DNA from: Pedobacter lusitanus
GTDB lineage: Bacteria; Bacteroidota; Bacteroidia; Sphingobacteriales; Sphingobacteriaceae
Reading direction: 5' to 3'
NCBI RefSeq assembly: GCF_040026395.1
Contig: NZ_CP157278.1
Coordinates: 1,116,001-1,180,000 of the forward strand
Length of the DNA stretch: 64,000 nucleotides
The notes under the pieces are model-generated. The model saw nothing but the letters and a program-made list of their open reading frames with translations, was not told where the DNA came from and made no database searches. Below are positions 2,273-17,642 of this stretch, piece after piece (position 1 is the stretch's first letter; the number at the start of each line of letters is the position of its first letter). The translations under genes were made by a program, and so were the position numbers.

Positions 2273-2310
2273 TATTCTTAAAGGCCGTTAAACAGCGACC
2301 TTTAAGAATA
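2273..2310. terminator. Bidirectional hairpin terminator between convergent genes
   Basis: TATTCTTAAAGG at 2273-2284 pairs perfectly with CCTTTAAGAATA at 2299-2310, giving a 12-bp stem and 14-nt loop. The outer bases provide A/T tracts on both sides. The right arm overlaps the last codons of the minus-strand TPR gene, so the terminator is partly coding. Confidence 0.7.
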
Positions 2311-3316
2311 AATCTTTACCTGAAGCAATTCTGACCGGTTTTCCGAGGAAGTCTTTCAAATGGGCTTCAGCATATTGCTGAATTTGCGCAATAGCCAGAG
2401 ATGTACGCTCTTTGTCATCCTTGTTAAGATAGAAAATAACCTGTTCCAGAAGATTTGCTTTAAAATGATCATAAGCAGCAGAAATTTCTGTGTCTCCAAA
2501 AAAAGCTTTCAGATTCTCAAAATAAACTTCTTCAGGATCATTGAAATAAGAAGCTTTCACGTACATCCAGTTATGTGCTATCGCCCTGTTATAAAGGTCT
2601 GCCGGCATATCGGCCAGTAGTGGCTGAAAAATATGGGTATTAAAATAAACATTATCGTATTCGCCGGTATACATTAATGCACTATTTAGCGATGCCAGCT
2701 GATTAAATACAGAATCCATCGCATTCTCCTGTACCAGAGCCACAGCCCTGATCAGTTCATGGTTCCAGTCTTCAATAATCAATCCTTCTGCATGCCCTGA
2801 ATAAATAAAAGTGATAATATTTTTAATCAGGTTATTAGCCTTTTCCAGATCTCCCATCTTTTGATAGATACGGGATATATTCTGAATCTGCTCAATTCTC
2901 CTGAAAATAAGAATCGGATACCCGTTACGTTCCAGTTCAGCACTTAGTAACAATCCTTCTTTCATTAAAGCTATTGCTTCTTCCCAGCGTGCTACTTTGT
3001 AATAATAATTCCCCCAGGCAGAAAGTTTAAACAGTTTAGGTAAAACATGACTTTCGGGAATAGTATCAAACAACCCGTCAGCCATTTCAAAAAGCCTGTC
3101 TGCTTCTTTAAAATCATTTTTCCGGCAAGCAACAACAGCATCCAGATAAATGTCAATACAGTGATGTATCTGTGGCCCGGTAATCGTGTTTTCATTATCC
3201 TGTTTGCCTAATAAAAAGCTGAATACGCCGTTATATTCGGCTGGTGCTTTACTACCTGACTTGTCCTCAGGACTAATGTTCTGCAAAAAATCGATAAAAT
3301 CATTTAGTGTTTCCAT
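2288..3316 (-). CDS. TPR-like helical protein of the lanthipeptide export operon
   Basis: This 342-residue soluble protein has no signal peptide. It is built of helical pairs resembling tetratricopeptide repeats, for example the segments with DAVVACRKNDFKEADRLFE, WGNYYYKVARWEEAIALMKE and ISRIYQKMGDLEKANNLIK (about residues 55-190). The C-terminal third is helical but not clearly TPR. TPR folds mediate protein contacts. It lies 5 bp downstream of the C39 ABC exporter on the same strand, so it is almost certainly cotranslated with it. An adaptor or chaperone role in peptide export is inferred only from that position. No enzyme motif was seen. Confidence 0.75.
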   Translation of the reverse strand: METLNDFIDFLQNISPEDKSGSKAPAEYNGVFSFLLGKQDNENTITGPQIHHCIDIYLDAVVACRKNDFKEADRLFEMADGLFDTIPESHVLPKLFKLSAWGNYYYKVARWEEAIALMKEGLLLSAELERNGYPILIFRRIEQIQNISRIYQKMGDLEKANNLIKNIITFIYSGHAEGLIIEDWNHELIRAVALVQENAMDSVFNQLASLNSALMYTGEYDNVYFNTHIFQPLLADMPADLYNRAIAHNWMYVKASYFNDPEEVYFENLKAFFGDTEISAAYDHFKANLLEQVIFYLNKDDKERTSLAIAQIQQYAEAHLKDFLGKPVRIASGKDLFLKVAV

Positions 3317-3321
3317 AATTT

Positions 3322-5532
3322 TTAATTTCCTAGTTCCAATTGATTCTTAATTAATTTGTAGTAATATCCCCGCTGTGCAACAAGTTCAGCATGTGTACCC
3401 TGCTCGGCTACCCCGCCATTATCCAGAACAATTATATTATCGGCATTCTTCACTGTACTCAGACGATGGGCAACAATCACCACTGTTTTTCCCTCCAAAA
3501 AGGTATTTAAACGTTCAATGATGATCTTTTCATTTGAAGCATCCAAAGCGCTTGTAGCCTCATCAAGAAAAATATATTCAGGGTTTTTATAAACCATACG
3601 GGCAATCAATATTCTTTGTTTCTGTCCGCCGCTGATCCCTTTTCCATCTTCACCAATTTTAGTTTGAAAACCCAGAGGCTGACTCGAAATGTATTGCTGA
3701 AGATTAGCTATATGGATAGCCCGCTGTAAACTTTCCAGACTCAGATTCTCTTTGTTCAGCGCTATATTATTTGCTATAGTATCAGAAAATATAAAGCCAT
3801 CCTGCAATACAACTCCACAATGCTGTCTCCAGAAATCAGGACTCATATTTTCAAAAGAATTGCTTTCCATGATGATCTCTCCGTCGGTTGGTTTGCAGAT
3901 TCTCAGCATTAATTTCAATAATGTGGTCTTTCCGCTTCCGCTGGCCCCGACAATGGCAGTTGTTTTACCGGATTCTATTGTCAGATTCAATCTGTCGATA
4001 GTCACCTTATTTCCTGCCCCGGGGTATACAAAACTTACCTCTTTAAAAATTAAGCTCCGGTTTACAGGAAGTCTGTTAATATAGTTGTACTGCGTATCCT
4101 CTTCTTCTTCCAGCGCCTGTATCTGCCCCAGACGCTCCATACTGATTTTTGCCTCCTGATAAGTTTGTATAAATGAAGCCAGCTGCGCAATAGGATTATT
4201 CATCTGTCCAACTATAAACTGTATAGCCATCATATCTCCAAGGGTCATCTCATTTTTGATAACCAGCCTGGCTGCAAGAAACAGGATAAATATATTTTTA
4301 GCCTGATTGATAAAAGCTGACCCGATTTGCTGATACTGACTTAAGGATAATGTCTGTATGTTAAACCTGAACAATCTGGCCTGCAGCTCTTCCCATTCCC
4401 AGATCTTTTGTGTTCCGCAATTGTTAATTTTGATTTCGCAGATTCCGTTAAGCAATTCCATTGTCTTAGACCTGTTCTGAGAAGTGATATCGAACCGCTT
4501 AAAGTCCAGTTTTTCTCTCCGGGCAAGAAAAAGTGAAAGCCATCCGAAATACATCAGGCTTCCACTAATAAACACACCACAAATGACTGGATTATATGCA
4601 AATAGCACGAAACTAAATACTATGAAGGTTATGATTGAAAAAAGCGTATTCAAAGAAGCTCCGCTTAACAGATTCTCTATTCTTTTATGATCCTCTATAC
4701 GCTGTAAAATATCCCCGTTTAATTTACTGTCAAAGAAAGTCAGCGGCAAACGGAATAACTTATGCAAAAATGCCGACAGCACCTCAACATTAACTCTGGA
4801 AGTAATATGCAGCACAATCCAGCCTCTGATAAATTCAACTGATGTCTGCCCCAGCACAATAAACAATTGTCCCAGTAGAATGGCATAAATAATATTCAGA
4901 TTCTGCCCCTTCACCCCCATATCCACAAGGGCTTTGGTAAGAAAGGGTAAAATAAGCTGAATTAATGCACCGGCCAGCAATCCTGCAAACAATTGCCTGA
5001 TCAATGCTTTATATTGCATCAGGTGTTTCAAAAGATATCCTATACCATTAACGACAACCTTTTTATCATCTTCCAGATCATAAAAAGTTGTGGTGGGCTT
5101 AAGTAATAAAACAATACCGGCAGGTTCATTCTGGATCTGCGTATATGCCCAGTTATTTAAGAATTCATCCTTTGAATAGGATTGCAAACCACTTCCCGGA
5201 TCAGAAACATAAACCTTTTTCTTGCTCATTTTGTATAAAACGACAAAATGATTTTTCCGCCAGTGAATAATACAAGGCAAAACAGGTCTCCCCTGTAATT
5301 TCTCGTAAGTCATATTCCCCCCTACAGTATGTAATCCAAGGTTTTCCGCAGCTCTGCTTATCCCTAACAATGATACTCCTGTTTTCCCGATCTCGCTTAA
5401 CCTGCGGATTTTTTCCAGGTCAAAAAACTTCCCGTAAAACTTGCTGATTATCTTTAAACACGTAGGCCCGCAATCCATCATGTCATGCTGTTTGTAATGA
5501 GGAAAACGCAGCGCTTTTACTTGGTCTATCAT
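3322..5532 (-). CDS. C39-peptidase-containing ABC transporter (bacteriocin exporter)
   Basis: This 736-residue inner-membrane exporter fuses leader peptidase and transporter. Residues 10-135 form a C39 papain-like domain with Cys21 (in DCGPTCL), His95 (NHFVVLY) and Asp111 (SDPGSG), all intact. Six membrane helices follow (about 165-450). The ATPase carries Walker A GASGSGKTT, signature ISGGQKQR, and Walker B YIFLDEATSALD. Such proteins cut double-glycine leaders while exporting the peptide. The lanA products in this window end their leaders in GG, so they are the obvious substrates. The gene is divergent from the LytS kinase gene and is followed 5 bp later by the TPR gene. No full-length HlyD partner is encoded nearby, only a miniature one at 7558-8061. 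Confidence 0.95.
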   Translation of the reverse strand: MIDQVKALRFPHYKQHDMMDCGPTCLKIISKFYGKFFDLEKIRRLSEIGKTGVSLLGISRAAENLGLHTVGGNMTYEKLQGRPVLPCIIHWRKNHFVVLYKMSKKKVYVSDPGSGLQSYSKDEFLNNWAYTQIQNEPAGIVLLLKPTTTFYDLEDDKKVVVNGIGYLLKHLMQYKALIRQLFAGLLAGALIQLILPFLTKALVDMGVKGQNLNIIYAILLGQLFIVLGQTSVEFIRGWIVLHITSRVNVEVLSAFLHKLFRLPLTFFDSKLNGDILQRIEDHKRIENLLSGASLNTLFSIITFIVFSFVLFAYNPVICGVFISGSLMYFGWLSLFLARREKLDFKRFDITSQNRSKTMELLNGICEIKINNCGTQKIWEWEELQARLFRFNIQTLSLSQYQQIGSAFINQAKNIFILFLAARLVIKNEMTLGDMMAIQFIVGQMNNPIAQLASFIQTYQEAKISMERLGQIQALEEEEDTQYNYINRLPVNRSLIFKEVSFVYPGAGNKVTIDRLNLTIESGKTTAIVGASGSGKTTLLKLMLRICKPTDGEIIMESNSFENMSPDFWRQHCGVVLQDGFIFSDTIANNIALNKENLSLESLQRAIHIANLQQYISSQPLGFQTKIGEDGKGISGGQKQRILIARMVYKNPEYIFLDEATSALDASNEKIIIERLNTFLEGKTVVIVAHRLSTVKNADNIIVLDNGGVAEQGTHAELVAQRGYYYKLIKNQLELGN

Positions 5533-5679: not shown

Positions 5680-6783
5680 ATGAGGCTAAATAATTATACC
5701 CCATGGATCTCAAAAATAGACTGGAATAAACAATATTCTACCCGTACAAGAATCCTCTTTCATTTACTGATGTGGACTCTTCTCTCTATTTTGTACTTCA
5801 ATGGATATAACAGATATGACAAACAACTTGGCTGGCTGTTTGTCATCAAAGACCTGACCTGCATCATGATCATTTTTTATGCAGCCTCATATTATGTACT
5901 TCCCAGGTTATTATTTAAAGGCAAAGTTGTACTAACACTCATTGCAGGAGTACTCTCTTACCTGCTGTATGGAAGTTTAACTTATCTGCTCTGTGTAATT
6001 CTCAATGCAAATTTCGAACAAAGCCCGCGGTTACATAACTATGTGGTGGTGGTTCTGGATCATAAGATTACCGGTATTTTCACCTGGTGGGCCGTTTCAT
6101 TTTATCTGCTTGATTTTCTTTACCTGGTTACCCCGCCACTGGCACTAAAACTTATCAAACTGATTACTGACCAGAGTAATAAACGTATCATACTGGAAAG
6201 AGACAATCTGAACCTGGAGATAAATTTCCTGAAAGCACAGATAAATCCCCATTTTTTATTCAATACACTGAATAATATTTATAGAATGGTTAACAAACAG
6301 GACCCTAAAACAGGTCCTATGGTCCTGCATTTTGCGGATCTGATGAGATATACTTTATATGAATCCAACGTGGACAGAATATTATTATCCAGAGAAGTCG
6401 AATTTATTAATGATTACCTGGAACTGGAACGCATCAGATATGGGAAAGATGTAAGCATTAAAACACATTTTAAAGAAGATTTCGGCCGGATGATGGTTGT
6501 GCCTTTAATTCTCTTTCCATTTATTGAAAATGCTTTTAAACACGGGATTGATGCAACTATAGAATCATCATGGATAGAAATATTACTTGAAGTGAAGGAA
6601 AACATTCTCCATTTTGAAGTAAACAATAGTGTCGGTAATGGCTACCCAACTGAAGAATTTGGTGGTGTTGGCGTTGCCAACGTCAAAAAACGTCTGAATA
6701 TTCACTATGCTAATAAATTTAAACTGACAAACCGGGCAGAAGACGGCGTGTATAGCGTAAATCTTCAGCTTGTATTGAATTAA
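5680..6783 (+). CDS. LytS-family sensor histidine kinase
   Basis: This 367-residue kinase has an N-terminal membrane module of four helices (about residues 25-45, 55-77, 82-108 and 130-155). The His_kinase domain (PF06580 type) contains the phospho-acceptor His191 in QINPHFLFNTLNN. The ATP-binding domain has an N-box at PFIENAFKHG (280-289) and a G-box at GVGVANVKKRL (329-339). There is no large extracellular domain, so the signal is probably sensed in the membrane. The gene is followed 62 bp later by a LytTR response regulator, its likely partner. The pair is nested between the two halves of the lanthipeptide locus, which suggests it controls peptide production or export. Confidence 0.93.
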   Translation: MRLNNYTPWISKIDWNKQYSTRTRILFHLLMWTLLSILYFNGYNRYDKQLGWLFVIKDLTCIMIIFYAASYYVLPRLLFKGKVVLTLIAGVLSYLLYGSLTYLLCVILNANFEQSPRLHNYVVVVLDHKITGIFTWWAVSFYLLDFLYLVTPPLALKLIKLITDQSNKRIILERDNLNLEINFLKAQINPHFLFNTLNNIYRMVNKQDPKTGPMVLHFADLMRYTLYESNVDRILLSREVEFINDYLELERIRYGKDVSIKTHFKEDFGRMMVVPLILFPFIENAFKHGIDATIESSWIEILLEVKENILHFEVNNSVGNGYPTEEFGGVGVANVKKRLNIHYANKFKLTNRAEDGVYSVNLQLVLN

Positions 6784-6845: not shown

Positions 6846-7556
6846 ATGACTATTAAATGCCTGATCATAGACGATGAGCCTCTGGCAAGGGAAACCATTG
6901 AGGATTATATCAGTAAAATACCAAATCTTGAATTGATTGCAAGTTGCAAGCATGTTTTTGATGCCCTGGAGCACCTGCAAAATGATACAGTAGATCTGCT
7001 GTTCTCAGACATCCACATGCCTGAAGTAAATGGAATTGATTTTATCAGATCTTTACAAAACCCACCTTACGTAATTTTTATCTCCGCTTATCCAAACTAT
7101 GCCGTTGACGGATTTGATCTGGATGCCCTGGATTATATAGTTAAACCCTTTCCTTTCGAACGGCTCCTCAGAGCTGTTAATAAAGCATCCAAAATAATTT
7201 ATCAGAAAGGTAAAACTACCGATACTCCAAAAAATCAACATCTTTTTGTCAAAGACGGTCATAAATTACACCGGGTAATGTTTGATGAGATTTGTTATGT
7301 AGAAGGAATGAAAGACTATGTGAAGCTGGTTCTCAAAGACCGGACAATCGTAACTCACCTTACGATGAAACGGGTTGAAGACCAGCTGCCTGAAGACAAA
7401 TTTATCAGAATACAAAAATCTTTTATTATCAAAAAAGACGAGATCAAGTCATTCAATGGAAACGAAATTGATTTATATACTCTGAAGGAAAAAATCCCTA
7501 TTGGAAAACTTTATAAGGAAGCATTGCTAAAACATTTTGGCCTTAACATGGATTAG
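6846..7556 (+). CDS. LytTR-family response regulator
   Basis: This 236-residue regulator has a receiver domain (residues 3-118) with the acidic pair in IIDDEPLA, phospho-acceptor Asp55 in LLFSDIHMPE, and a lysine in the YIVKPF motif. It ends in a LytTR DNA-binding domain (about 135-232, including FVKDGHKL, ICYVEGMKDYVKL, FIRIQKSFIIK and IPIGKLY). LytTR proteins bind direct repeats upstream of target promoters and often control bacteriocin genes. The cognate kinase lies directly upstream. The gene ends one base from the convergent mini-HlyD gene with no terminator between them, so antisense overlap of transcripts is likely. Confidence 0.95.
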   Translation: MTIKCLIIDDEPLARETIEDYISKIPNLELIASCKHVFDALEHLQNDTVDLLFSDIHMPEVNGIDFIRSLQNPPYVIFISAYPNYAVDGFDLDALDYIVKPFPFERLLRAVNKASKIIYQKGKTTDTPKNQHLFVKDGHKLHRVMFDEICYVEGMKDYVKLVLKDRTIVTHLTMKRVEDQLPEDKFIRIQKSFIIKKDEIKSFNGNEIDLYTLKEKIPIGKLYKEALLKHFGLNMD

Positions 7557-7557: not shown

Positions 7558-8061
7558 TTATTCCATTAATGATTTAAGCAGCGTTCTCTTTTCACTTTCA
7601 AAAATAAGCGTTCCGCCAATGGATTCTATTTCCGGTAATTTACCTGCCAGAAATTCTGCAGATTTTTGATCCAGCTTAACAGTATAAGATATTTTGCCGT
7701 TTTTTATGGGAGGAATGATCTTCAGTAACCTCCCTTTTAAACTTATTTTATCCTGTGAGCTATTATCCAATGGAATTTCGATCTGAACAACACCTGCTTT
7801 TTTTAAACCGTCAAGCTGGCCGGCATCCAGCATACCTTTTACCAGGTACTCAGGAGTGTGTTTAGCAGCATCAGCAGTCAGCTGACCATATAACACGACG
7901 GGCAGGATATGCTCCTTGGGTATAACAATCAGTGCTGAACTTATTACAAAACTGGTAATAATAAACAGAAGGATGGTACCTCCTACACGATTAACCCAAT
8001 GTGGCGGATTACCAATTATCTCATTGATTTCTGCTGAAAAATGGGGACGGTCTATGATCAT
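7558..8061 (-). CDS. Miniature HlyD-like membrane fusion protein
   Basis: This 167-residue protein starts like Bacteroidota HlyD adaptors: a segment ending in EINEIIGNPPHWVNRVG, then one membrane helix (about residues 27-48). It also ends like them, with a strand-rich part containing LKGRLLKIIPP and YTVKLD and the tail GGTLIFESEKRTLLKSLME. What normally lies between, the lipoyl/barrel-sandwich and the long coiled coil, is almost wholly missing; full-length relatives are about 400 residues. The start overlaps the LanB stop by 4 bp, so the two are translationally coupled. It may be an adaptor for the C39 exporter. The family call rests on the terminal motifs and is moderately secure. Confidence 0.65.
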   Translation of the reverse strand: MIIDRPHFSAEINEIIGNPPHWVNRVGGTILLFIITSFVISSALIVIPKEHILPVVLYGQLTADAAKHTPEYLVKGMLDAGQLDGLKKAGVVQIEIPLDNSSQDKISLKGRLLKIIPPIKNGKISYTVKLDQKSAEFLAGKLPEIESIGGTLIFESEKRTLLKSLME

Positions 8062-11000
8062 GATAATATAGTTTTAATTGGTGAATGTTTTCTTCGTGCA
8101 ATCAACGACGCATAATATTTAGCCATGTGATGATAAACTACCATCTCATGCATTCTTTGATTGGCAATAAATATTCTATTTAAAAACATGTGTATATAAC
8201 TCGGCATAATACTTCTGAAAACTGCACTAAAATCAGTTCCGGGTGTGTGTTCCTGAGCAGAATTATAGAATTTCTCAAGCGCAGATTTGTTTAATGCTGA
8301 TCGCACAGTGAACAGCTGAACTGCATCTTCTATCTCTTCGGTATCATTTTGAGGATCCATAAACAGATTCAGTTCGCTGGTAACAGCTCTGAATTTATCA
8401 TTCAATTGTGTATTCAGACTCTTATTTCCATCAAATTCGGTAAAGAATGAAGAAAATACCTGTTCCATCATTTGCTGTCTTTGTTCAATGGTCATTTCAA
8501 AATCTGCCATCAGCAAATCCACCCCTCTCATTGCAAAAAGCCACCTGTACCGCTCACCTTCTACCCCCTCTATCATATCGATGAAGCTACTTACAGCCTT
8601 ACTGTCATGGTAAAAAACTGTTTCACTGAGTTCCATAGTCTTTTCCCCGTAACGTTCTATCTCTCTGTCATAAGTATCATATTGCAGCTTACAAACAATT
8701 CTTTCCTCATATAATCCGCTCAGCGCCTGTTGTATTCTGCTAATGATTTCAGCGGTTGCTGCTGCATTCTTCTGATGCAGAAATCTTACTCTCAGGTGGC
8801 CTTCCGGATCATTAAAGCGAATAAAGAACCATTTTTCAACAATGCCATCTTCTTCCATATCAGTAATCAGAGGCAGTAAATACTCTGTCAGGATGGTATC
8901 CGCCCATTTTGAGCCACAGTATATTTTAACATAAGTCCATTCGCTTCCCAGAGGAAAAGAACGGGTTATTACACTTTTCTTTCCCTGAACCAAACCTCTT
9001 GAAGCTTTCACCTCATTTTGAACATAAAACGGAATGATCACTTCATTTAAATAACCAGCTCCTGAGCTATCAGTTGCCAGATGGCTATCCTGAGTATGTA
9101 AAAACTCATATAATACAGCATCCTTTTTTTTCAGATGCTGAATAAGCAATGGCATCACCAGTAAACTGTCAAAATCCAGAAGCAGTTCATTATCACCTTC
9201 GGTAAGCAAAACTTTAGCAGGAAGATTGTATTTTTTTCTGAAGGCTGTTATTTCTTCAGCAGTCTTTATACCCTTAATATCATTGTATATGGAAGACTTC
9301 AGCTGCCACCTCGCTCTGGATAGAATAATATGTTTATACTCAATTCTTGGCAGGAATGCCTGCTCACCCAGAAAATTCCAGTCCCATATAATTGCAAAAG
9401 AATTGTCCTGGTTCTGCAAATCGCATAAGAACTTATAGACAGAGATCCCATTTCCAAAATTATGGGCAGAACTCAATCTTGGAATGATAATCTTATTCAA
9501 TCGTTTAGAGCGAAGTACAATTTTGCCATTTCTGATAGAAACCATTAAATCTGTTACCGGAATCTGATGATCTTTATCCGCCGAAGAGTTTCCCAGAAAA
9601 GGAATCTCATATGACCTGATCTGAGGGCGCTGTAAAATATTACCTATCCTGGCTTCAGGAAGATGAACAACCTCAGCGACAATAGCATCTCCCAGCCCAT
9701 CCTGCTCTATCTGAGCACATTGCTTTAATTTTTGATCAAGCGGATCAATTGATTGAGCAAACCTTCCCAATAGCGGGGTTGCAGAAGGGCCGCCGCAAAT
9801 GGTCATACTGAATTTAAAATCCCCATTATCCAGATCTTCGCCGCTGGCAGCAACAAAACTCCCTACGCTGTATAATGTATTGGGCAGGCTATTTTCACGC
9901 TGTCCTAATTTTTCCAGCTCTTCAGGAGTGATCATAATTTTATCATTTCCGGTCTCCTGACTTTCAATGAATTTCTTAAAAACAAATTGTTTATATGGAG
10001 TCCAGCTTATTTTACTTATTTCTTTTTTACCCGGCAAAATCATTCCGTCAATTAAAGGCGTATAATTAGCATGAGCACCGCTGAATTTGGCATAACCAAT
10101 TCCTGCTTCAGTATCCAGTGCTTCAAGCAAAGGGATTTCCTGTTCCTCATAACGGTAACTGAACTTCTGTTTGAATGTTCTTAAATCACCTGAAACTGTA
10201 CTTTTATATAATCCGCTTAACTCACCCAGTTCTTTAGAAAGAATTCCAATACTCTGTTTGCTCAACGAGTTTTTATTCATTTTAATTTCCAGATCAGTCT
10301 GTACCAGATCCTTACTTTTTGCTGATGGAAAATCTTCCAGAAGAATTGACTCAATTTCCTTACAAGCTCCGATCAGATTCCCCTTTTCCTGTAAAATGGT
10401 ATTAATTTTTAATAAGCCCGGTAATTTAGTATTGGTACTATCCAGCTGTTCCAGTTTTTCCAGTAGTACATCAAAAAACTCTCTTCCGGTTACCGTAGGC
10501 TCAAGCTCTGAGGTAATAATCTGGCTATTGATAATATCATCCAAAAACTCAGCAGATTGTTCTGGAGTAAGTGATAATGATATCAATGCATTCAGCAGAT
10601 CCTGATACTTCGCACCATTTGCAGCTGTACTTAAGATCATCTCTACATATTTTGATGATTTGATAGAAACCAGGAAATAATCCCTTTTTTTATTTCTTAA
10701 TTTATATTCATAATAGCGATAAGTAGTATTTGTTTTATAAAGACTGTTATTGGGATAAAAAGTCAATTTAGTTTTGAGCTCTGGCTGCTGAATTAATGCA
10801 GAGGTGATTTCTGCCACATAATTCATATCAAGACGACTATGTTTAACTGTATCATTTTTCAATTCCCAGCTGGTCTTCTCTTCGCCAATCAACCCCATAT
10901 CAAATCCGGCAAACAAACCATATGGCGTACATCTGGAACTCATTCGCAGCAAATACTTATATAAGGTTTGCATTAATTTTTCACTTTTTATCAACGCTGG

Positions 11001-11210
11001 ATTTTCCAGCCACTTTAACAATTCTGCATGAAGTTCAGGACTGGCCAGATAAATAGACTCCTGAATATCTTCCGATTGATAAATAGTAAAAATTGCCTTT
11101 ATCAGGCTTTCAGGGTCAGCAATTTTATTCAAAGCAAACAAGTTATCTATTGACAATGCCGGCATTCTCAGTAAATAAAAATCGAAAGGGGTAATTTTTG
11201 CTTTTTGCAT
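8058..11210 (-). CDS. LanB-type lantibiotic dehydratase, full length
   Basis: This 1050-residue protein combines both LanB activities. The N-terminal glutamylation domain starts PFDFYLLRMP (Arg15) and carries LLRMSSRCTPYGLFAGF (Arg89, Arg93, Thr95), matching the tRNA-Glu-dependent site of NisB-type enzymes. The elimination (SpaB_C) domain spans about 755-1035 with GSEWTYVKIY, FIRFNDPEGHLRVRF (796-810) and YDREIERYG (847-855). LanB enzymes glutamylate Ser/Thr of a precursor core and eliminate glutamate to give Dha/Dhb. It is one continuous frame, not split as in some Bacteroidota clusters. It lies 15 bp downstream of the receiver gene and overlaps the mini-HlyD gene. The substrates should be the LanA peptides at 15.3-17.2 kb. 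Confidence 0.95.
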   Translation of the reverse strand: MQKAKITPFDFYLLRMPALSIDNLFALNKIADPESLIKAIFTIYQSEDIQESIYLASPELHAELLKWLENPALIKSEKLMQTLYKYLLRMSSRCTPYGLFAGFDMGLIGEEKTSWELKNDTVKHSRLDMNYVAEITSALIQQPELKTKLTFYPNNSLYKTNTTYRYYEYKLRNKKRDYFLVSIKSSKYVEMILSTAANGAKYQDLLNALISLSLTPEQSAEFLDDIINSQIITSELEPTVTGREFFDVLLEKLEQLDSTNTKLPGLLKINTILQEKGNLIGACKEIESILLEDFPSAKSKDLVQTDLEIKMNKNSLSKQSIGILSKELGELSGLYKSTVSGDLRTFKQKFSYRYEEQEIPLLEALDTEAGIGYAKFSGAHANYTPLIDGMILPGKKEISKISWTPYKQFVFKKFIESQETGNDKIMITPEELEKLGQRENSLPNTLYSVGSFVAASGEDLDNGDFKFSMTICGGPSATPLLGRFAQSIDPLDQKLKQCAQIEQDGLGDAIVAEVVHLPEARIGNILQRPQIRSYEIPFLGNSSADKDHQIPVTDLMVSIRNGKIVLRSKRLNKIIIPRLSSAHNFGNGISVYKFLCDLQNQDNSFAIIWDWNFLGEQAFLPRIEYKHIILSRARWQLKSSIYNDIKGIKTAEEITAFRKKYNLPAKVLLTEGDNELLLDFDSLLVMPLLIQHLKKKDAVLYEFLHTQDSHLATDSSGAGYLNEVIIPFYVQNEVKASRGLVQGKKSVITRSFPLGSEWTYVKIYCGSKWADTILTEYLLPLITDMEEDGIVEKWFFIRFNDPEGHLRVRFLHQKNAAATAEIISRIQQALSGLYEERIVCKLQYDTYDREIERYGEKTMELSETVFYHDSKAVSSFIDMIEGVEGERYRWLFAMRGVDLLMADFEMTIEQRQQMMEQVFSSFFTEFDGNKSLNTQLNDKFRAVTSELNLFMDPQNDTEEIEDAVQLFTVRSALNKSALEKFYNSAQEHTPGTDFSAVFRSIMPSYIHMFLNRIFIANQRMHEMVVYHHMAKYYASLIARRKHSPIKTILS

Positions 11211-11225: not shown

Positions 11226-11591
11226 TTATCTATTTATTATTGAATAAAAAACCTCATCGATACAACGATTAAATTTCTCATAGGACACTGGTTTATAAAG
11301 TACATTACTAATCTGACTCAAGTCGTAATCACTTAACTGATCTATCGTATATGCCGTTACAAGTACTATACTGCTATCATTTGAAAAAAGTCCTTCTATA
11401 TCTTTTTTCACGTTGCCTCTTATTTTAATGTCCATGAACATTAAATCTATTTTCACTTCCTTAAATTTAACAAAGTCATTGACATTATTAAACTTACCTA
11501 AAAGCTTTAAATCGCCTCTTCTGTGTATATATTCCTGAAGAAGCTCTTGTGCCAATGGCTCGTCTTCTATGATTATGCAGGTTAGTATCAT
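11226..11591 (-). CDS. Stand-alone response-regulator receiver domain
   Basis: This 121-residue receiver domain has no output domain. It opens CIIIEDEPLAQELLQEYI, very like the LytTR regulators of the same locus, with phospho-acceptor Asp54 (LMFMDIKI), a Thr/Ala at 79-80 and Lys100 in LYKPVS, so the phosphorylation site is intact. The DNA-binding LytTR half is absent, and the frame ends in a proper stop 15 bp before LanB. It sits between LanC-like and LanB genes in one transcript. It could accept phosphate from the LytS kinase as a sink or act through protein contacts. It looks like a truncated paralogue of the regulator at 6846-7556. Confidence 0.88.
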   Translation of the reverse strand: MILTCIIIEDEPLAQELLQEYIHRRGDLKLLGKFNNVNDFVKFKEVKIDLMFMDIKIRGNVKKDIEGLFSNDSSIVLVTAYTIDQLSDYDLSQISNVLYKPVSYEKFNRCIDEVFYSIINR

Positions 11592-11600: not shown

Positions 11601-12818
11601 CTAAGGTATCCATGTAAATTCATTAATTGATAGTTCTCCTTCGGTCAGATACTGAATTAATACTAAACCGATTCCGGCAAGACCATAACCAAACCCTAGC
11701 TGTCCTTCCGGATATTTATCAAAGAAATAGGAGTTGAATCCCAGATATTCATTATCTGATTTATTCATTTTGCTGATTTGACTGAACCAGTAGTTTGCCG
11801 CTTTTTTAAAGGTATCAATCCCTGTCAGCTGATAAATCCTGCTATACAAAAGATAAGGAGAACTGACACCATATTTAACGGAAGCATCCTTCAGTGTTGA
11901 ACCTTCCATCCGATGTCTGGTAATTGTATCATAGGCCAGATCAATTCCTTCAAGCAAAGCAACTGAATCATTAAGAATCTTCGCTGCTTTTATTATGGCG
12001 TAAACAGTACCAATATCACCATAGACAACGCAGTGATTTTTAGTTTCTTCATTTCTGCCAATCCACAGCGGGAAGTTTGAACCATACTGATCAGGATCAA
12101 TTTTATTAAGCAGTAAAAATCTTATAGCATAACGCATCAGCTCTTCACATCTTTCTTTTTCAATTCCTTTTTCGTGAATTGAGCAGAGGAAATTGATAAT
12201 CATTCCATTTCCATGTGCTAATCCTGTATAGACTCTTGGCTCTTCGAAATAATTCGTAGTCCAGTAATATCCGTTATCCTTATCCCCTTCGCGGGAAGAA
12301 TAAATAGCTTCAAATAAAGCCAGGGTACAGCGATAGATTTCAGGAGAACTGTCCAGTCTTCTTAACAGATAAGAACTGATACTTAAAGCTCCTGTTCCTA
12401 TTCCAAAATTTTTAGCCTCAATATTTGTTTCTACTCTATCAATTAACAAAGCATCAAATTCATCAAATGAAAAGCCCGTGTCCTGATCTAAATGTCCTTT
12501 CTCCTGAAGATAGCTGATCAGTGTTCCAAACTCAGATAAGTCACCATAATAATTAGATAGTATAGCTTTATATTTAGCAGGGTTCAGCGCATCTATGGAT
12601 TCCAGCAGTAGTTTTTCAGCAACTTCATAATACTTATCATCCCCTGTTAATTTCGCATAGTGACAGTTTAATAATAAGGCCCCACCACGTCCGGTTCCAA
12701 GACCGAAATTATGCAGTACTGTACCCGTAAGTGAATTTACATGAGTTACAATATTAGCCAGCAGTGTTTCTGTGCTTTTTTGAGCTGACTGACTTTCATA
12801 TTTTTTCAATAGTTCCAT
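11601..12818 (-). CDS. LanC-like protein lacking the zinc ligands
   Basis: This 405-residue protein has the LanC alpha/alpha-toroid layout: HNFGLGTGRGGALLL (36-50), NFGIGTGAL (137-145), GLAHGNG (199-205), and GFGYGLAGIGLVLI near the end. LanC cyclases bind zinc through one Cys in a WCYG motif and a Cys-His pair in a CHG motif. Here the first motif reads CVVYGDIG (V265 at the Cys position) and the second VKYGVSSPYLLYSR (K315-Y316 in place of Cys-His). His202 of the active site is kept. Classical zinc-dependent cyclisation therefore looks impossible. It may be a scaffold, a partner of LanB, or a divergent enzyme. It is translated 4 bp after the TonB receptor gene and 9 bp before the receiver gene. 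Confidence 0.85.
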   Translation of the reverse strand: MELLKKYESQSAQKSTETLLANIVTHVNSLTGTVLHNFGLGTGRGGALLLNCHYAKLTGDDKYYEVAEKLLLESIDALNPAKYKAILSNYYGDLSEFGTLISYLQEKGHLDQDTGFSFDEFDALLIDRVETNIEAKNFGIGTGALSISSYLLRRLDSSPEIYRCTLALFEAIYSSREGDKDNGYYWTTNYFEEPRVYTGLAHGNGMIINFLCSIHEKGIEKERCEELMRYAIRFLLLNKIDPDQYGSNFPLWIGRNEETKNHCVVYGDIGTVYAIIKAAKILNDSVALLEGIDLAYDTITRHRMEGSTLKDASVKYGVSSPYLLYSRIYQLTGIDTFKKAANYWFSQISKMNKSDNEYLGFNSYFFDKYPEGQLGFGYGLAGIGLVLIQYLTEGELSINEFTWIP

Positions 12819-12822: not shown

Positions 12823-15249
12823 TTAAAGTTTTAGCCTGTTAATTTCATTTGTATTTCCCTGTGTATTGGATTTTTCTCTTTTTTTACTCTCATTTCCTCC
12901 AAAACTGTAACGAAAGCTAAGTCTGACTCTTCTGGTATCCATCCTGTTTATTCCACTGGTAACTATCGGAATGATATTGGTTGAGATCAGGATATTGTTA
13001 TTGTAAAAAATATCAGAGACATCAAGTTTAACTGAGCCTTTCCCTGCAAGAACAGTCTTTTTAATTCCTGCACTAACATTGGAGTAACCGCCATACGAAT
13101 AGATTCCATTGATGCTGGGAGAATTATAATAGGCAGATATTTCTGCAGAGAGTCCGTCATTGAAAGTAAAAGTGTTCAGTGTGTTGAGTGCATAATAAGT
13201 TTTGCTCCTGGTCAGTATTTCATTATTATCAAATACTGATGGATACTTCAGATCTTTGAAATATAATGTAGCCCGATTGTTCATATCCCACCAGGATGCG
13301 ATTTTCACAGGAATAGAAAGTGCTGCACTGAATAAATTCTGATTCAGGAAATTACTTTGAGTCTGAATAAAACGGAAAGTGTTTTCATCATAAATCATGG
13401 TACTTGCCAGTGCATCCGTCGTTCTTGTATAAGCTAAACGCAAACTATATTTTTTATATAAATGGTTCCAGGAAAACGTTTGTTTATATTCAGGTCTCAG
13501 AAAAGCATTTCCTCTGCTAACTGTATAATTATCTATGAATAGTTCATAAGGTATCAGGTTATCATAAGATGGTCTGTTAATATTTCTTGCATAACCAATT
13601 GATGAACTATATACTTTGGAAACTTTATAATCTATCCTCAGGTTAGGGAACAGATTAAAATAGCTGGAATCGATACCACCGGTAACTTTATATGAACTTT
13701 GCTCGGCACGCAGTCCTGCCTGAAATGAAAACTTTCCTACCTTCTGATTAAAGTTGATATAACCAGCATATATTTTCTCCGAATATCCCAGCTCTCTTAA
13801 TCCACTATTATTATCTGTCCAGGCACCATCCTGAAACACTTCAGTAACCTGATTGCTATGATTTTCAGTCAGCGTATATTTCAGTCCTGCCTCTAATTTT
13901 GCAGAACTGCTGAAATTTTTAGTGTAGTCAGCTGTTCCGGTATAAATATCGTATTTGGCCGGAGCGTTATTTCTGAACTGGGAATTTCCAATATTGCCTG
14001 TACTCTCGTCAAGTGTACTCTGTTTAAATTCCTGCTGTTGTCCGCTTGTATAACGGGCATAATTCGCTGTCGTCAGAAAGTTTGACCCCAATGAGTCAAG
14101 AACTGCTTTATAGAAAATATTATAGTTAGAAAAACCTACCTGCAGTAAAACATCATTAAATGTGTTGGTGATTAACCTGTTCTGGTTTTCATTAATTACT
14201 GCATCTAAATTACCTGAACCGTTTAATTTAGATTTGATCAGATTTACATCTGCCCCAAAGCTGTTATTTTTATTTAATTGATAGCCAATGCTTCCATTTA
14301 AGCTTTTATCAATCATACTACCTTTTGAAATATCCATTTGCTGAGTAAAATCACCAATCCGGTTTTTCCCCTGGTACAATTCTCTGTTAGAGTATCCGCG
14401 TTCGATATGTCCTTTTTGTGAATATCCTGCAGAAACTCCGAAATCCCATTTTTTAGTACTTAATCTAAAGTCAGCGTCACCACCACCGCCGGTTCTGTAT
14501 CCCCGGGCAACATTCCCGCTAACATTCGATGTCCAGCCCATTTGTGAATTTCTTTTGGTATATATTTCGATTACTCCACCTGATGCATTAGCATCGTATT
14601 TTGAAGAAGGGTTACTTATAAATTCTATACGTTCAATCTGCTCACCAGATAAAGATCCAAGGATACTTTCCAGTGTAGCTCCGGGAAGACGTTTACCATT
14701 AAGCAGAATCAATACATTTGATTTTCCATCCATAGTCAGCTTTCCGTTCATTAACTGAACTGAAGGCGCCATGGCCAGAATATCATAAGCATTGTTCCCA
14801 CTTGCCAGCACACTGCCCTGTACATTCATAATTAACCGATCTGTTTTTTGCTGTATGAGAGGTTTTTTTGCAGAGATAGTGACTCCGCTTAAAGTTTGTC
14901 TGTCATCGTGAAGAACAATTTCCGTCAGATTCACGGCATGACTCTGTTCAAAACTGATGGTCTGTTTCCAGGGGGTAAAACCTACGCTGGATATAGTGAT
15001 TTCCACGATTCCATTACGGATATCTGAAATTGAAAATTCGCCGGTATTATTACTGATCACATTGCGTTTGGCAAGTGTATCAGAAGCTTTAATGATTAAA
15101 CTTACTGTTGCAAACGGAACAGGAATTTTCTGCTCGTCCACAACTTTACCCTTAATTGTATTTTGTGCAAAACAAGGGCAAAACAACAATGATAAGCTTA
15201 CAAAAATTAGCATCCTGATTATTAAATATTCGCCCGTTAAGTATTTCAT
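12823..15249 (-). CDS. TonB-dependent receptor / outer-membrane beta-barrel protein of the lanthipeptide operon
   Basis: This 808-residue outer-membrane protein has a signal peptide ending near CPCFAQ, a CarboxypepD_reg-like domain (about 30-115; IKGKVVDEQKIPVPFATVSL), a TonB-plug-like domain (about 130-235; YDILAMAPSVQLMNGKL, NPSSKYDANASGGVIEIYT) and a long C-terminal barrel of the outer-membrane beta-barrel 14905 type. There is no extended TonB box, and the C-terminus is a Lys/Asn-rich tail. Such receptors take up or bind ligands. It sits between the precursors and the LanC-like gene in one leftward transcription unit. It may reimport, sense or release the peptide, which is inferred from position. 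An alternative start at Met13 would also leave a complete signal peptide. Confidence 0.88.
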   Translation of the reverse strand: MKYLTGEYLIIRMLIFVSLSLLFCPCFAQNTIKGKVVDEQKIPVPFATVSLIIKASDTLAKRNVISNNTGEFSISDIRNGIVEITISSVGFTPWKQTISFEQSHAVNLTEIVLHDDRQTLSGVTISAKKPLIQQKTDRLIMNVQGSVLASGNNAYDILAMAPSVQLMNGKLTMDGKSNVLILLNGKRLPGATLESILGSLSGEQIERIEFISNPSSKYDANASGGVIEIYTKRNSQMGWTSNVSGNVARGYRTGGGGDADFRLSTKKWDFGVSAGYSQKGHIERGYSNRELYQGKNRIGDFTQQMDISKGSMIDKSLNGSIGYQLNKNNSFGADVNLIKSKLNGSGNLDAVINENQNRLITNTFNDVLLQVGFSNYNIFYKAVLDSLGSNFLTTANYARYTSGQQQEFKQSTLDESTGNIGNSQFRNNAPAKYDIYTGTADYTKNFSSSAKLEAGLKYTLTENHSNQVTEVFQDGAWTDNNSGLRELGYSEKIYAGYINFNQKVGKFSFQAGLRAEQSSYKVTGGIDSSYFNLFPNLRIDYKVSKVYSSSIGYARNINRPSYDNLIPYELFIDNYTVSRGNAFLRPEYKQTFSWNHLYKKYSLRLAYTRTTDALASTMIYDENTFRFIQTQSNFLNQNLFSAALSIPVKIASWWDMNNRATLYFKDLKYPSVFDNNEILTRSKTYYALNTLNTFTFNDGLSAEISAYYNSPSINGIYSYGGYSNVSAGIKKTVLAGKGSVKLDVSDIFYNNNILISTNIIPIVTSGINRMDTRRVRLSFRYSFGGNESKKREKSNTQGNTNEINRLKL

Positions 15250-15291: not shown

Positions 15292-15471
15292 TTAGTTATA
15301 ATCTTCCCGCTCTGCTTCTTTACAGTTAGGACAGGATTTGGACCCCGTTATGCAAGACATATTGTTGGCATGTGCACCACCACCATATAACTCTTTTAAC
15401 TGATCCTCATTTAGTTTGGAAATAATCTCTTTATCTAAGGTTATTTTATTGGTTAGTTTTACTTTTTTCAT
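15292..15471 (-). CDS. LanA1, class I lanthipeptide precursor
   Basis: A 59-residue precursor. The leader MKKVKLTNKITLDKEIISKL continues into NEDQLKELYGGG, a double-glycine site. The core AHANNMSCITGSKSCPNCKE holds three Cys with Ser/Thr partners, then the acidic tail AEREDYN. The start is taken at the ATG at 15469-15471, because it aligns exactly with the other seven precursors; an earlier in-frame ATG would add MAIKSTCK. It is the last precursor before the TonB receptor gene (42 bp). It has one more Cys than LanA3-8, shares its TNK leader type with LanA2 and diverges from the SDK/SEK types upstream. Confidence 0.88.
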   Translation of the reverse strand: MKKVKLTNKITLDKEIISKLNEDQLKELYGGGAHANNMSCITGSKSCPNCKEAEREDYN

Positions 15472-15484: not shown

Positions 15485-15682
15485 TTAATTGCCAAAAATT
15501 AAATTATCAAGAGATTCTTCCGGATCACATTTCGCTGACTGACAGGATAAATTAGAGCCCGTTATACATGACATATTGTAGGCATTTTTACCACCCTCCA
15601 GCTCTCTTAACTGATCATCGTTCAGTTTGGAAATGATCTTTTTATCCAGGCTTATTTTATTGGTTAGCTTTACTTTTTTCAT
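15485..15682 (-). CDS. LanA2, class I lanthipeptide precursor
   Basis: A 65-residue precursor with leader MKKVKLTNKISLDKKIISKL, then NDDQLRELEGG and core KNAYNMSCITGSNLSCQSAK followed by CDPEESLDNLIFGN. The MSCITGS element is shared with LanA1. The core has three Cys and several dehydratable Ser/Thr. The C-terminal tail is longer and more hydrophobic (NLIFGN) than in the other precursors. The start ATG at 15680-15682 is followed by the family-wide MKKV. It lies 13 bp upstream of LanA1 and downstream of the strong hairpin at 15714-15745, which separates LanA1-2 from LanA3-8. Confidence 0.9.
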   Translation of the reverse strand: MKKVKLTNKISLDKKIISKLNDDQLRELEGGKNAYNMSCITGSNLSCQSAKCDPEESLDNLIFGN

Positions 15683-15713: not shown

Positions 15714-15745
15714 TATCAGGGGCATTCAAATGAACACCCCTGATA
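15714..15745 (-). terminator. Hairpin after LanA3, probable internal attenuator
   Basis: TATCAGGGG at 15714-15722 pairs perfectly with CCCCTGATA at 15737-15745 (9 bp, 14-nt loop with an inner TTCA/TGAA pairing). It starts 8 nt after the LanA3 stop codon in transcript order and is followed by an A/U-rich but not pure U tract. It could partly stop transcription, giving more precursor mRNA than mRNA for LanA1-2, receptor and enzymes. Confidence 0.6.
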
Positions 15746-15753
15746 AATAGCTA

Positions 15754-15927
15754 TTATAGAGAAGCATCTACTTCTGGTTGCTGAACACCTTTACAAGAGT
15801 TATCTCCTGTGATACAAGAAAGGCCTTGTTTAGCACCACCTTCTAATTCGCTCAATTGGTCCTGAGTTAATTTTGAAATGATTTCTTTGTCTAATTGTAC
15901 TTTGTCTGATAGATTTACCTTTTTCAT
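15754..15927 (-). CDS. LanA3, class I lanthipeptide precursor
   Basis: A 57-residue precursor read directly from the sequence. The leader is MKKVNLSDKVQLDKEIISKL plus TQDQLSELEGG, and the core is AKQGLSCITGDNSCKGVQQ with tail PEVDASL. Two Cys and Ser/Thr residues in SCITGDNSC permit two thioether rings at most. Up to the second Cys it differs from LanA5 by one residue, a sign of recent duplication. The acidic/hydrophobic end (DASL) resembles the ends of LanA5-8. The gene is short enough to be skipped by standard gene callers. Confidence 0.9.
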   Translation of the reverse strand: MKKVNLSDKVQLDKEIISKLTQDQLSELEGGAKQGLSCITGDNSCKGVQQPEVDASL

Positions 15928-15970
15928 TTTGTTTAATTTTAATGGTTAAAATTGATTTTGGTTTCCTATT

Positions 15971-16010
15971 AACCATATAGAGCAGTTTGCAACAACACAC
16001 CCTATATGGT
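15971..16010 (-). repeat. Post-lanA hairpin element, copy 1
   Basis: ACCATATAG (15972-15980) and CTATATGGT (16002-16010) are perfect inverted repeats around the conserved loop word TTTGCAACAACACACC. In transcript order it begins 11 nt after the LanA4 stop codon. The same loop word recurs after LanA5 and LanA7. Confidence 0.75.
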
Positions 16011-16021
16011 AATGTGGTTAA

Positions 16022-16210
16022 TTAAATAGCTGATTCAGACTCTTCAGCCTCAATAGTTTTAGTTTTACCACCTGCACAAGAATTACTTCCTGTGATACAT
16101 GAAAGAGCTTGTTTAGCTCCACCTTCAAGTTCGCCTAATTGCGCTTCAGTAAACTTTGAAATAACTTCTTTGTCTAATTGAATTTTGTCTGATAGATTTA
16201 CCTTTTTCAT
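16022..16210 (-). CDS. LanA4, class I lanthipeptide precursor
   Basis: A 62-residue precursor with leader MKKVNLSDKIQLDKEVISKF plus TEAQLGELEGG, core AKQALSCITGSNSCAGG and a longer tail KTKTIEAEESESAI. It has the invariant two-Cys SCITGxNSC element. The tail is Thr/Glu-rich and ends AI rather than SL/QL. The ATG at 16208-16210 is preceded by the AT-rich upstream word (coding strand TTAACCATTAAAAT) shared by the array instead of a Shine-Dalgarno sequence. A hairpin element follows its stop. Confidence 0.92.
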   Translation of the reverse strand: MKKVNLSDKIQLDKEVISKFTEAQLGELEGGAKQALSCITGSNSCAGGKTKTIEAEESESAI

Positions 16211-16251
16211 TTTGTTTAATTTTAATGGTTAAAATTGATTTTGAATTTCGG

Positions 16252-16293
16252 TTAACCAGATAGGCATAGTTTGCAACAACACACCCTATATGA
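16252..16293 (-). repeat. Post-lanA hairpin element, copy 2
   Basis: This copy carries the same loop word TTTGCAACAACACACC and right arm CTATATG as copy 1. The left arm is degenerate (ATAGG against CCTAT, 5 bp). It begins 10 nt after the LanA5 stop codon. The loop is better conserved than the stem, which argues for a sequence-specific role or very recent duplication. Confidence 0.7.
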
Positions 16294-16303
16294 TTACAAT
16301 CGA

Positions 16304-16477
16304 CTAAAGTGAAGCTTCTTCAGCCTCGATACTTTTAGTTTTACAAGAGTTATCTCCTGTGATACAAGAAAGGCCTTGTTTAGCACCACCTTCTAACTCG
16401 CTCAATTGTTCCTGAGTTAATTTTGAAATGATTTCTTTGTCTAACTGTACTTTGTCTGATAGATTTACCTTTTTCAT
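16304..16477 (-). CDS. LanA5, class I lanthipeptide precursor
   Basis: A 57-residue precursor: leader MKKVNLSDKVQLDKEIISKL plus TQEQLSELEGG, core AKQGLSCITGDNSCK, tail TKSIEAEEASL. Leader and core are nearly identical to LanA3, whereas the tail resembles LanA4 (TK-IEAEE), so it may be a recombinant of the two types. It has two Cys and intact Ser/Thr partners. The start ATG is at 16475-16477, in line with the family. Only 27 bp separate it from LanA6 upstream. Confidence 0.9.
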   Translation of the reverse strand: MKKVNLSDKVQLDKEIISKLTQEQLSELEGGAKQGLSCITGDNSCKTKSIEAEEASL

Positions 16478-16504
16478 TTTGTTTGATTTTAAGAGTTAAA
16501 TAAA

Positions 16505-16681
16505 TTATAAAGAAGCTTCTCCTATTTCAGGGCTTACTTTTGAAGCACAAGAATGATCTCCTGTTACGCAAGAAAGGCCTTGTTTAGCACCACCTTCTAA
16601 TTCACTTAATTGGTCCTCAGACAATTTTGAAATGATTTCTTTGTCTAACTGTACTTTTTCTGATAGATTTACTTTTTTCAT
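16505..16681 (-). CDS. LanA6, class I lanthipeptide precursor
   Basis: A 58-residue precursor: leader MKKVNLSEKVQLDKEIISKL plus SEDQLSELEGG, core AKQGLSCVTGDHSCASK, tail VSPEIGEASL. The Ile of the SCITG element is replaced by Val and Asn by His, the only such changes in the set. It is the first gene of the SEK subtype in map order (LanA6-8). The 27-bp spacer after it lacks the hairpin element found after LanA4, 5 and 7. The start ATG lies at 16679-16681. Confidence 0.9.
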   Translation of the reverse strand: MKKVNLSEKVQLDKEIISKLSEDQLSELEGGAKQGLSCVTGDHSCASKVSPEIGEASL

Positions 16682-16724
16682 TTTGTTTGATTTTAATGGT
16701 TAATAATTGATTTTTAATTTCAGA

Positions 16725-16764
16725 TAACCACATAGAGCCGTTTGCAACAACACACCCTATATGT
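16725..16764 (-). repeat. Post-lanA hairpin element, copy 3
   Basis: Loop word TTTGCAACAACACACC again, flanked by ACATAG (16730-16735) and CTATATGT (16757-16764), which pair with a TA insertion. It begins 8 nt after the LanA7 stop codon. Three of the five spacers within LanA3-8 carry this element, always just after a stop. Confidence 0.7.
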
Positions 16765-16772
16765 TTGATTTA

Positions 16773-16949
16773 CTAAAGTTGCTCTGATTCTATTTCAGGA
16801 CTTACTTTTGAAGCACATGAGTTGTTTCCTCCGATACAAGAAAGCGCTTGTTTTGCACCACCTTCTAACTCACCTAATTGCTCTTCAGTCAATTTTGAGA
16901 TGATTTCTTTGTCTAACTGTACTTTTTCTGATAGATTTACCTTTTTCAT
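16773..16949 (-). CDS. LanA7, class I lanthipeptide precursor
   Basis: A 58-residue precursor: leader MKKVNLSEKVQLDKEIISKL plus TEEQLGELEGG, core AKQALSCIGGNNSCASK, tail VSPEIESEQL. The Thr of the SCITG element is Gly here, so the dehydratable residue between the two Cys is lost and only the Ser residues remain as ring partners. The tail is close to LanA6. The start ATG lies at 16947-16949, and a hairpin element follows the stop. It has the same AT-rich untranslated leader as its neighbours. Confidence 0.9.
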   Translation of the reverse strand: MKKVNLSEKVQLDKEIISKLTEEQLGELEGGAKQALSCIGGNNSCASKVSPEIESEQL

Positions 16950-17020
16950 TTTGTTTGATTTTAATGGTTAATTATTATGTTGATTATTGATATGCAAATG
17001 CCGGTAAGAATCGTTGAGGT

Positions 17021-17200
17021 CTAAAGCTGCGCTTCTTCTGCTTCAGGGCTTGTCTTACTTGCACAAGAGTCTTTTCCTCCGATACAAGACAGTCCTAATT
17101 TCCCGGAGCCACCTTCAAGTTCTTTTAATTGATCATCACTTAATTTTGAAATGATCTCTTTGTCTAGTTGTACTTTTTCTGATAGATTTACCTTTTTCAT
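17021..17200 (-). CDS. LanA8, class I lanthipeptide precursor
   Basis: A 59-residue precursor, the first of the lanA array in transcript order. The leader is MKKVNLSEKVQLDKEIISKL plus SDDQLKELEGG, the core SGKLGLSCIGGKDSCASK, the tail TSPEAEEAQL. Like LanA7 it has Gly in place of the Thr between the Cys residues. The segment after the GG site differs from the others (SGKL against AKQ) and is one residue longer. The start ATG lies at 17198-17200. It is 128 bp downstream of the short GG peptide gene. Confidence 0.9.
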   Translation of the reverse strand: MKKVNLSEKVQLDKEIISKLSDDQLKELEGGSGKLGLSCIGGKDSCASKTSPEAEEAQL

Positions 17201-17328
17201 TTTGTTTGGTTTTAAGAGTTGACTATTATTTTGGTTTGATTTAATCCGTCTTGAATTAACTGGCCAGTTGCTTTTCAGCGCGGTTTAAAGAGAAAGCCAG
17301 GTATAAATTATTTCAGGTTTACCGGGTA

Positions 17329-17481
17329 CTAATTCTCTTCTTCCTTTTCAACGAACAAATGTTCTATTTCCAGAAAGCTCACTACATTGGTATCTCCGCC
17401 ACCACCCATTACCATATTTAATTCGTTATCAGTAAAAAAACTGAAGTCATTATTTCCGAGGTCAAAAAAATCGTTTTTCAT
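17329..17481 (-). CDS. Short double-glycine peptide without Cys
   Basis: A 50-residue frame starting MKNDFFDLGNNDFSFFTDNE, then LNMVMGGGG and the short acidic end DTNVVSFLEIEHLFVEKEEEN. The DNELNMVMGG stretch resembles the GG leaders of Bacteroidota natural-product precursors. The part after the GG has no Cys and just one Thr and one Ser, so it could not form lanthionines alone. It lies 5 bp downstream of the Ser/Thr-rich peptide and upstream of LanA8. It may be a companion peptide, a signal for the LytS kinase, or an unrelated small gene. It was read from the sequence by hand. Confidence 0.65.
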   Translation of the reverse strand: MKNDFFDLGNNDFSFFTDNELNMVMGGGGDTNVVSFLEIEHLFVEKEEEN

Positions 17482-17486
17482 AATTT

Positions 17487-17642
17487 TTAGAATTGAACTA
17501 TAATTTGAGAACTTGTGAATGTATCAGGGCTGGTATGACTGGTATTCGTCTGCCTTTTATTGTCAAATGAATTAACAGTGAACTTTCCAATTATTTGTTT
17601 TTGAATCTTAACATCATCAGTTTTGTAAATTTTCTTTTTCAT
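17487..17642 (-). CDS. Short Ser/Thr-rich peptide without Cys
   Basis: A 51-residue frame that begins MKKKIYKTDDVKIQKQIIGK and ends in a Ser/Thr-rich stretch with TNTSHTSPDTFTSSQIIVQF. About twelve of the last 32 residues are Ser or Thr and there is no Cys or GG site. A LanB enzyme could dehydrate such residues, but ring formation would be impossible without Cys. It is promoter-proximal in the leftward unit, with a long AT-rich leader before it and the GG peptide 5 bp after it. Function unknown; a role as LanB substrate is inference. Confidence 0.6.
   Translation of the reverse strand: MKKKIYKTDDVKIQKQIIGKFTVNSFDNKRQTNTSHTSPDTFTSSQIIVQF

Follow-up and report, generated by a model that had tools for sequence, protein, structure and literature searches.

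We analysed a 64,000-nucleotide stretch of the Pedobacter lusitanus genome (NCBI RefSeq assembly GCF_040026395.1, contig NZ_CP157278.1, forward-strand positions 1,116,001 to 1,180,000; hereafter the window), in which a lanthipeptide-type locus lies at window positions 2288–17642; the genome is a single contig of 6.05 Mb. The locus contains eight precursor genes, two genes for small Cys-free peptides, and genes for a LanB dehydratase, a LanC-family protein, a C39 exporter, a LytS/LytTR pair, a receiver-only protein, an outer-membrane receptor and a TPR protein. An open reading frame was present for every gene that an initial annotation, made from the sequence alone, had named there. LanB (8058..11210, 1050 aa; coordinates are window positions, and genes are on the minus strand unless stated) spans both of its Pfam domains (PF04738, 460 bits, positions 3–648 of 649; PF14028, 222 bits, positions 1–255 of 255), and all nine catalytic residues, counted by hand on alignments, are kept relative to MadB, so the full-length enzyme with intact motifs claimed by the initial annotation was borne out. 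These nine residues are essential in NisB and conserved in MadB (PMC12241602; here and below, statements on published articles refer to excerpts of them). The LanC-like assignment of the neighbouring protein (11601..12818, 405 aa) likewise held, with a PF05147 match of 79.3 bits (cut-off 23.2). Given a two-domain LanB with its catalytic residues, a separate PF05147 protein and LanA peptides combining a leader with a Ser/Thr- and Cys-bearing core, the locus is confirmed, as far as its genes can tell, as a class I-type lanthipeptide gene cluster, whose product may contain (methyl)lanthionine. Most of the gene set was found again in nine named relatives, indicating that the locus is not a chance grouping; as exceptions, the receiver-only protein was not found in three Hymenobacter loci, and the exporter of one locus (L063) is split over two reading frames. 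Among the relatives, G326, which is of the same genus, has the LanC most like that of the window.

The class I-type genes agree with the lanthipeptide-making interpretation of the initial annotation, which nevertheless missed that the LanC protein lacks all three zinc ligands. In the family-profile alignment, also considering the relatives, NisC Cys284, Cys330 and His331 (numbering from PMC9889658 and PMC10604976) are replaced by Val265 (codon 12024..12026, minus strand), Lys315 and Tyr316 (codons 11871..11876, minus strand). The Cys-Cys-His triad of zinc-dependent LanC enzymes is thus Val, Lys and Tyr here, whereas the catalytic acid, NisC His212, is present as His202 (codon 12213..12215, minus strand), and its equivalent is retained in all 69 LanC rows that were compared. 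Tyr266, corresponding to NisC Tyr285, which has been proposed to stabilise the enolate (PMC9934072), is also retained, and the equivalents of both residues are kept in 21 of 21 window-type rows. Position 315 is Phe or Trp in 8 of the 21, those of Hymenobacter type. Because the three zinc ligands are lost, ordinary lanthionine formation cannot be assumed.

The annotation had described eight LanA-type precursors and two Cys-free peptides, and a search with NF038153 matched eight of the ten small peptides at 37.4–45.3 bits (cut-off 22), the two Cys-free peptides being the ones not matched. The precursors are encoded at 15292..15471 (core ..MSCITGSKSC.., 45.3 bits), 15485..15682 (..MSCITGSNLSC.., 42.7 bits), 15754..15927 (..LSCITGDNSC.., 40 bits), 16022..16210 (..LSCITGSNSC.., 37.4 bits), 16304..16477 (..LSCITGDNSC.., 39.9 bits), 16505..16681 (..LSCVTGDHSC.., 42.8 bits), 16773..16949 (..LSCIGGNNSC.., 41.8 bits) and 17021..17200 (..LSCIGGKDSC.., 42.4 bits). 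Counted from ATG, seven of them are shorter than 65 aa and one has 65 aa, in line with the claim that most fall below 65 codons, and the shared core and NF038153 matches fit the predicted family of small, similar precursors from class I-type genes. Across 11 window-type loci, a [ST]C-x-[ST]C core follows the Gly-Gly (GG) motif in 32 of 32 precursors counted, although many of these are near-copies belonging to related strains, and the profile used for the search was built from the eight window precursors and is therefore biased toward like cores. Three peptides were excluded from this count: one could be read only in part, one is degenerate and lacks GG, and one has no Cys. Within the 32, the motif spans 7 residues in 11 peptides, 9 in 19 and 10 in 2, and a core Cys is directly preceded by Ser or Thr in 64 of 67 cases. 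In the one-ligand loci L050–L053, which lie outside the 32, the motif was seen by eye in L050 and L053 and was not present at that spacing in L051 and L052. Precursors 3–8 lie within 195-nt repeated units (15754–17253), and three copies of a 27-nt intergenic repeat (15985, 16269 and 16740) accompany the duplicated units. We rejected this repeat as a genome-wide element, since a 23-base pattern derived from it, allowing up to two mismatches, occurs three times in the genome, all at this locus; together, the units and the locus-restricted repeat suggest duplication inside the precursor array.

Homologues of Cys-free peptide 1 (17329..17481, 50 aa, with an ELxM..GGGG leader) could be aligned at nine of the ten window-type loci of relatives, and none was found in L065, where the contig begins nearby; the peptide may be a C39 substrate or a signal. 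Cys-free peptide 2 (17487..17642, 51 aa) has a leader motif of LanB type and a tail rich in Ser/Thr, and the copy in a relative weakly matches the precursor profile (E 0.0057). Similar peptides lie upstream in L057 and L058 and, by eye, in L060 and L064. It is a candidate LanB substrate that would be dehydrated and uncyclised, perhaps yielding a linear dehydropeptide.

The loss of zinc ligands extends well beyond the window. Among 69 LanC open reading frames (at least 120 bits to a LanC profile, 330–520 aa, near-copies removed; a set centred on the window LanC that excludes LanC-like proteins of 620–690 aa and short or weak rows), 31 have all three ligands, 11 have the first Cys only, 27 have none, and none has exactly two. 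Within 23 database homologues, P0001–P0016, comprising the window's own entry and 15 proteins at 40–84% identity, lack the ligands wherever the row can be read (the third motif of P0003 is garbled, and P0005 is incomplete); all three are present in the distant homologues P0017–P0023 and in the same-genome paralogues L002 and L003. With the ligand columns removed, 35 of 37 ligand-poor rows formed one clade in a quick 68-row tree (SH-aLRT 99). A careful 57-row tree, from which the long or odd rows P0023, L114, L026_870, L002, P0022, L040, L119, P0020, P0021, L124 and L125 were also omitted (P0003 is missing from both trees), has a single branch parting 34 ligand-poor rows from 23 zinc rows (100/99). 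In both trees the 21 window-type rows have the one-ligand row L021 as their sister, so the loss looks stepwise, Cys330-His331 going first and Cys284 later. The no-ligand rows L113 and L118 group apart from the window type in the 57-row tree, which implies that Cys284 was lost, or regained, more than once. The window LanC was matched in 50 of 399 genomes of the family, of which at least 18, judged from the loci obtained, are ligand-poor. A window-type profile matched 11 genomes, counting that of the window, among 395 of the phylum, several of the matches being triad LanCs. Three Hymenobacter loci carry a window-type LanC.

Other unusual LanC proteins were seen in the course of this comparison. 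Locus L105 has tandem LanC genes, of which one is ligand-poor and the other retains the complete zinc triad. At L001 1345–3297 (region of genome position 4567923), a 650-aa LanC-like protein lies next to a split LanB, and its WAHG and LCSG motifs place Ala and Ser at two of the three zinc positions in an alignment with LicM2; similar proteins of 623–674 aa in relatives (L066–L070) share such changes. Furthermore, the Hymenobacter loci L061, L063 and L065 contain, near their 3' ends, a second LanB and a LanC-like protein without the zinc ligands and without the catalytic His.

Class I lanthipeptides have already been described from Bacteroidota and, within it, from Pedobacter. Those of Bacteroidetes have a described leader type, LxLxKx5L, with GG and C39 (PMC7268733), and the eight window peptides belong to this NF038153 leader family and share its GG and C39 features. 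The PedA15 lanthipeptides of P. lusitanus NL19 (Bothwell 2021; Caetano 2020) are of the same genus and class as the window locus, and the class I lanthipeptide PedA15.2 of P. lusitanus is mentioned as characterised, its leader having been removed with LahT150 (PMC12328550). Pinensins, cited by the initial annotation as precedent, are indeed class I lanthipeptides of Bacteroidota, but PedA15.2 is nearer; moreover, the pinensin LanB is split (PMC7268733) and the window LanB is one chain. From the zinc cyclases NisC and MadC the window LanC differs in having no zinc ligands and in changed equivalents of Trp283, Arg280 and Asp141. Class III LanKC functions without metal, zinc ligands being otherwise called strictly conserved (PMC10604976), and PMC7268733 names zinc residues as lacking for LanKC only, whereas the window case is a LanC. 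In the class III enzyme ThurKC the zinc ligands are replaced, as in the window LanC, and its Phe770 recalls the Phe or Trp at position 315; ThurKC, however, joins kinase and lyase in one chain and carries Asp where NisC has His212, whereas the window has a separate LanB and keeps the His. The 405-aa LanC stands alone and scores 23.7 bits against NF038151 (cut-off 575); the proposed metal-free lineage would be set apart from class III by this architecture, class III domains being outside the trees. For LanC-like proteins of Bacteroidales without a zinc triad, an accompanying LanB was never observed; several are located close to carbohydrate enzymes, and the authors regard them as probably not lanthipeptide enzymes (PMC10352776); the window LanC resembles them in lacking the triad but has an adjacent LanB and precursors. 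In the literature covered, to which the PedA15 papers (Bothwell 2021; Caetano 2020) do not belong, we found no report of a zinc-less LanC beside LanB, which is no proof of absence. A natural series of three, one and no ligands inside one bacterial family would allow a direct test of the role of zinc in thioether formation and would also show how an enzyme can do without it, with the triad paralogues L002 and L003 of the same genome as ready controls.

Several components depart from the Firmicutes layout, as the annotation had stated. The exporter (3322..5532, 736 aa) carries a C39 peptidase domain, the type of enzyme to which LahT150 also belongs, and its PF03412, PF00664 and PF00005 matches are above the Pfam cut-off, as are those of the LytS-type sensor kinase (5680..6783, plus strand, 367 aa; PF06580, 92.5 bits) and the LytTR response regulator (6846..7556, plus strand, 236 aa; PF00072 and PF04397), in agreement with the annotation. 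Three other labels stood in part. The 'TonB receptor' (12823..15249, 808 aa) is an outer-membrane beta-barrel receptor (OMP_b-brl_3, 281 bits, with a CarboxypepD_reg match), but no Plug domain is listed at E ≤ 0.1. The receiver-only protein (11226..11591, 121 aa) is an open frame of receiver-like character, but both of its domain matches fall below cut-off, at 21.5 bits for the Pfam receiver (cut-off 30.2) and, for the receiver part of BtsR, at a score far short of what that model requires (37.2 against 246). The 'mini-HlyD' (7558..8061, 167 aa) has no HlyD match itself in profile scans, so its HlyD-like label rests on homology; among Hymenobacter homologues that of L065 passes the HlyD_3 cut-off (25.1 against 22.2) and that of L061 is below it, and no HlyD match was found in the L063 homologue or in the four Pedobacter homologues tested. 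The window protein is shortened, its homologues having 225–230 aa in eight of ten window-type relatives. The TPR protein (2288..3316, 342 aa) has the peptide sensors NprR and RapF as its top fold matches and is a candidate for that sensor type. The receptor, LytTR and TPR genes accompany ligand-poor LanC at 19, 18 and 17 of 21 loci, respectively, compared with 0, 1 and 0 of the 16 loci where every LanC has the zinc triad, as detected by profiles grown from the window proteins, which distant homologues may escape.

On balance, we lean toward a class I-type pathway working with a metal-free LanC lineage, in which ring formation is a putative step. In such a pathway, LanB, judging from its intact residues, would dehydrate Ser and Thr of the eight precursors via glutamyl-tRNA, and the LanC-family protein would guide the addition of Cys thiols onto the dehydro residues. 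The acceptor side of LanC would be kept, His202 protonating the enolate and Tyr266 stabilising it, and the thiol-activating zinc would be lost; its role may be taken by Lys315 (replaced by Phe or Trp in rows of Hymenobacter type), by Tyr316 or by residues specific to the clade, e.g., E193-P194-R195 and Y197. The exporter is expected to cleave the leader after GG and then to export the peptides, the LytS/LytTR pair and perhaps the TPR protein would control expression, and the outer-membrane receptor would sense or take up a product. Further, the symmetrical Ser-Cys...Ser-Cys arrangement makes two nested thioethers in opposite directions possible, and we propose a pairing of the first Ser with the last Cys and of the first Cys with the last Ser. 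That a metal-free class I cyclase lineage forms two nested, antiparallel thioethers on the symmetrical cores (S-C-xn-S-C), giving a small hairpin-like bicycle and an eight-member library per cell, we nevertheless regard as unlikely.

Several observations weigh against a metal-free cyclase and bear on the alternatives. The ligand-poor rows L124 and L125 fall outside the clade in the 68-row tree and L114, likewise ligand-poor, sits there on a long branch, and all three are among the rows omitted from the 57-row tree. The NisC Asp141 equivalent is Gly139 (Glu or Asp in 8 of 21 window-type rows), the Arg280 equivalent is Asn261, and a Tyr occupies the place of the proposed base Asp771 of ThurKC. 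With Asp141 and Arg280 changed, a scaffold fits as well as a rebuilt enzyme, and the LanC-like protein might be a non-catalytic scaffold or chaperone; the exported peptides would then be dehydrated, their Cys being free, disulphide-bonded or part of rings that close spontaneously. The loss of all three ligands is consistent with this, as is the frequency of Ser/Thr directly before Cys, because neighbouring dehydroalanine and Cys might react without an enzyme. Retention of the His212 and Tyr285 equivalents throughout the window-type rows, of Ser/Thr and Cys in every core counted, and a ratio of nonsynonymous to synonymous substitution rates (dN/dS) of 0.075 for LanC, indicating purifying selection although dS exceeds 1 for LanC and LanB and makes their dN/dS rough, argue against it, and we consider a scaffold rather unlikely. 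Alternatively, the protein could be a zinc LanC with a shifted metal site, for which His262-Cys263, beside the lost ligand in Pedobacter-type rows, leaves room, as would other clade-specific Cys or His. NHC occurs at 261–263 in 13 Pedobacter-type rows, and all 21 window-type rows have C52, H109 and C224, which zinc rows seldom share. However, C263 is absent in 3 and H262 in 8 of the 21, and Tyr replaces the His ligand in all 32 rows of the window and one-ligand types, which makes a shifted site quite improbable. The window genome's own triad LanCs, L002 and L003, could act in trans, but zinc from another LanC is unlikely as a general answer: of seven relatives in the same genus that carry a window-type LanC, five yielded no PF05147 protein with the triad. 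G326 has one such protein and G394 two.

Compatible with a metal-free LanC pathway is a further reading in which the peptides are signals or uptake substrates rather than antibiotics, the receptor, LytS/LytTR, TPR protein and GG peptides forming a sensing circuit. The skewed distribution of receptor, LytTR and TPR genes, the peptide-sensor folds matched by the TPR protein and the conserved Cys-free GGGG peptide all point this way, and we hold such a role to be possible, if doubtful. Decay of the cluster into a non-functional state, as the ligand loss and the shortened HlyD-like protein might suggest, is by far the least probable explanation, since all frames are open, most genes are present also in the nine relatives, and dN/dS (NG86) is 0.013–0.102 across seven genes, with 0.013 for the exporter against P. 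cryoconitis L057; YN00 estimates were obtained for four of the seven.

Elsewhere in the window, ten open reading frames scanned at 34231–51411 include nucleotide-sugar, glycosyltransferase, Wzi and Wzz/tyrosine-kinase genes, which probably form a capsule or exopolysaccharide locus.

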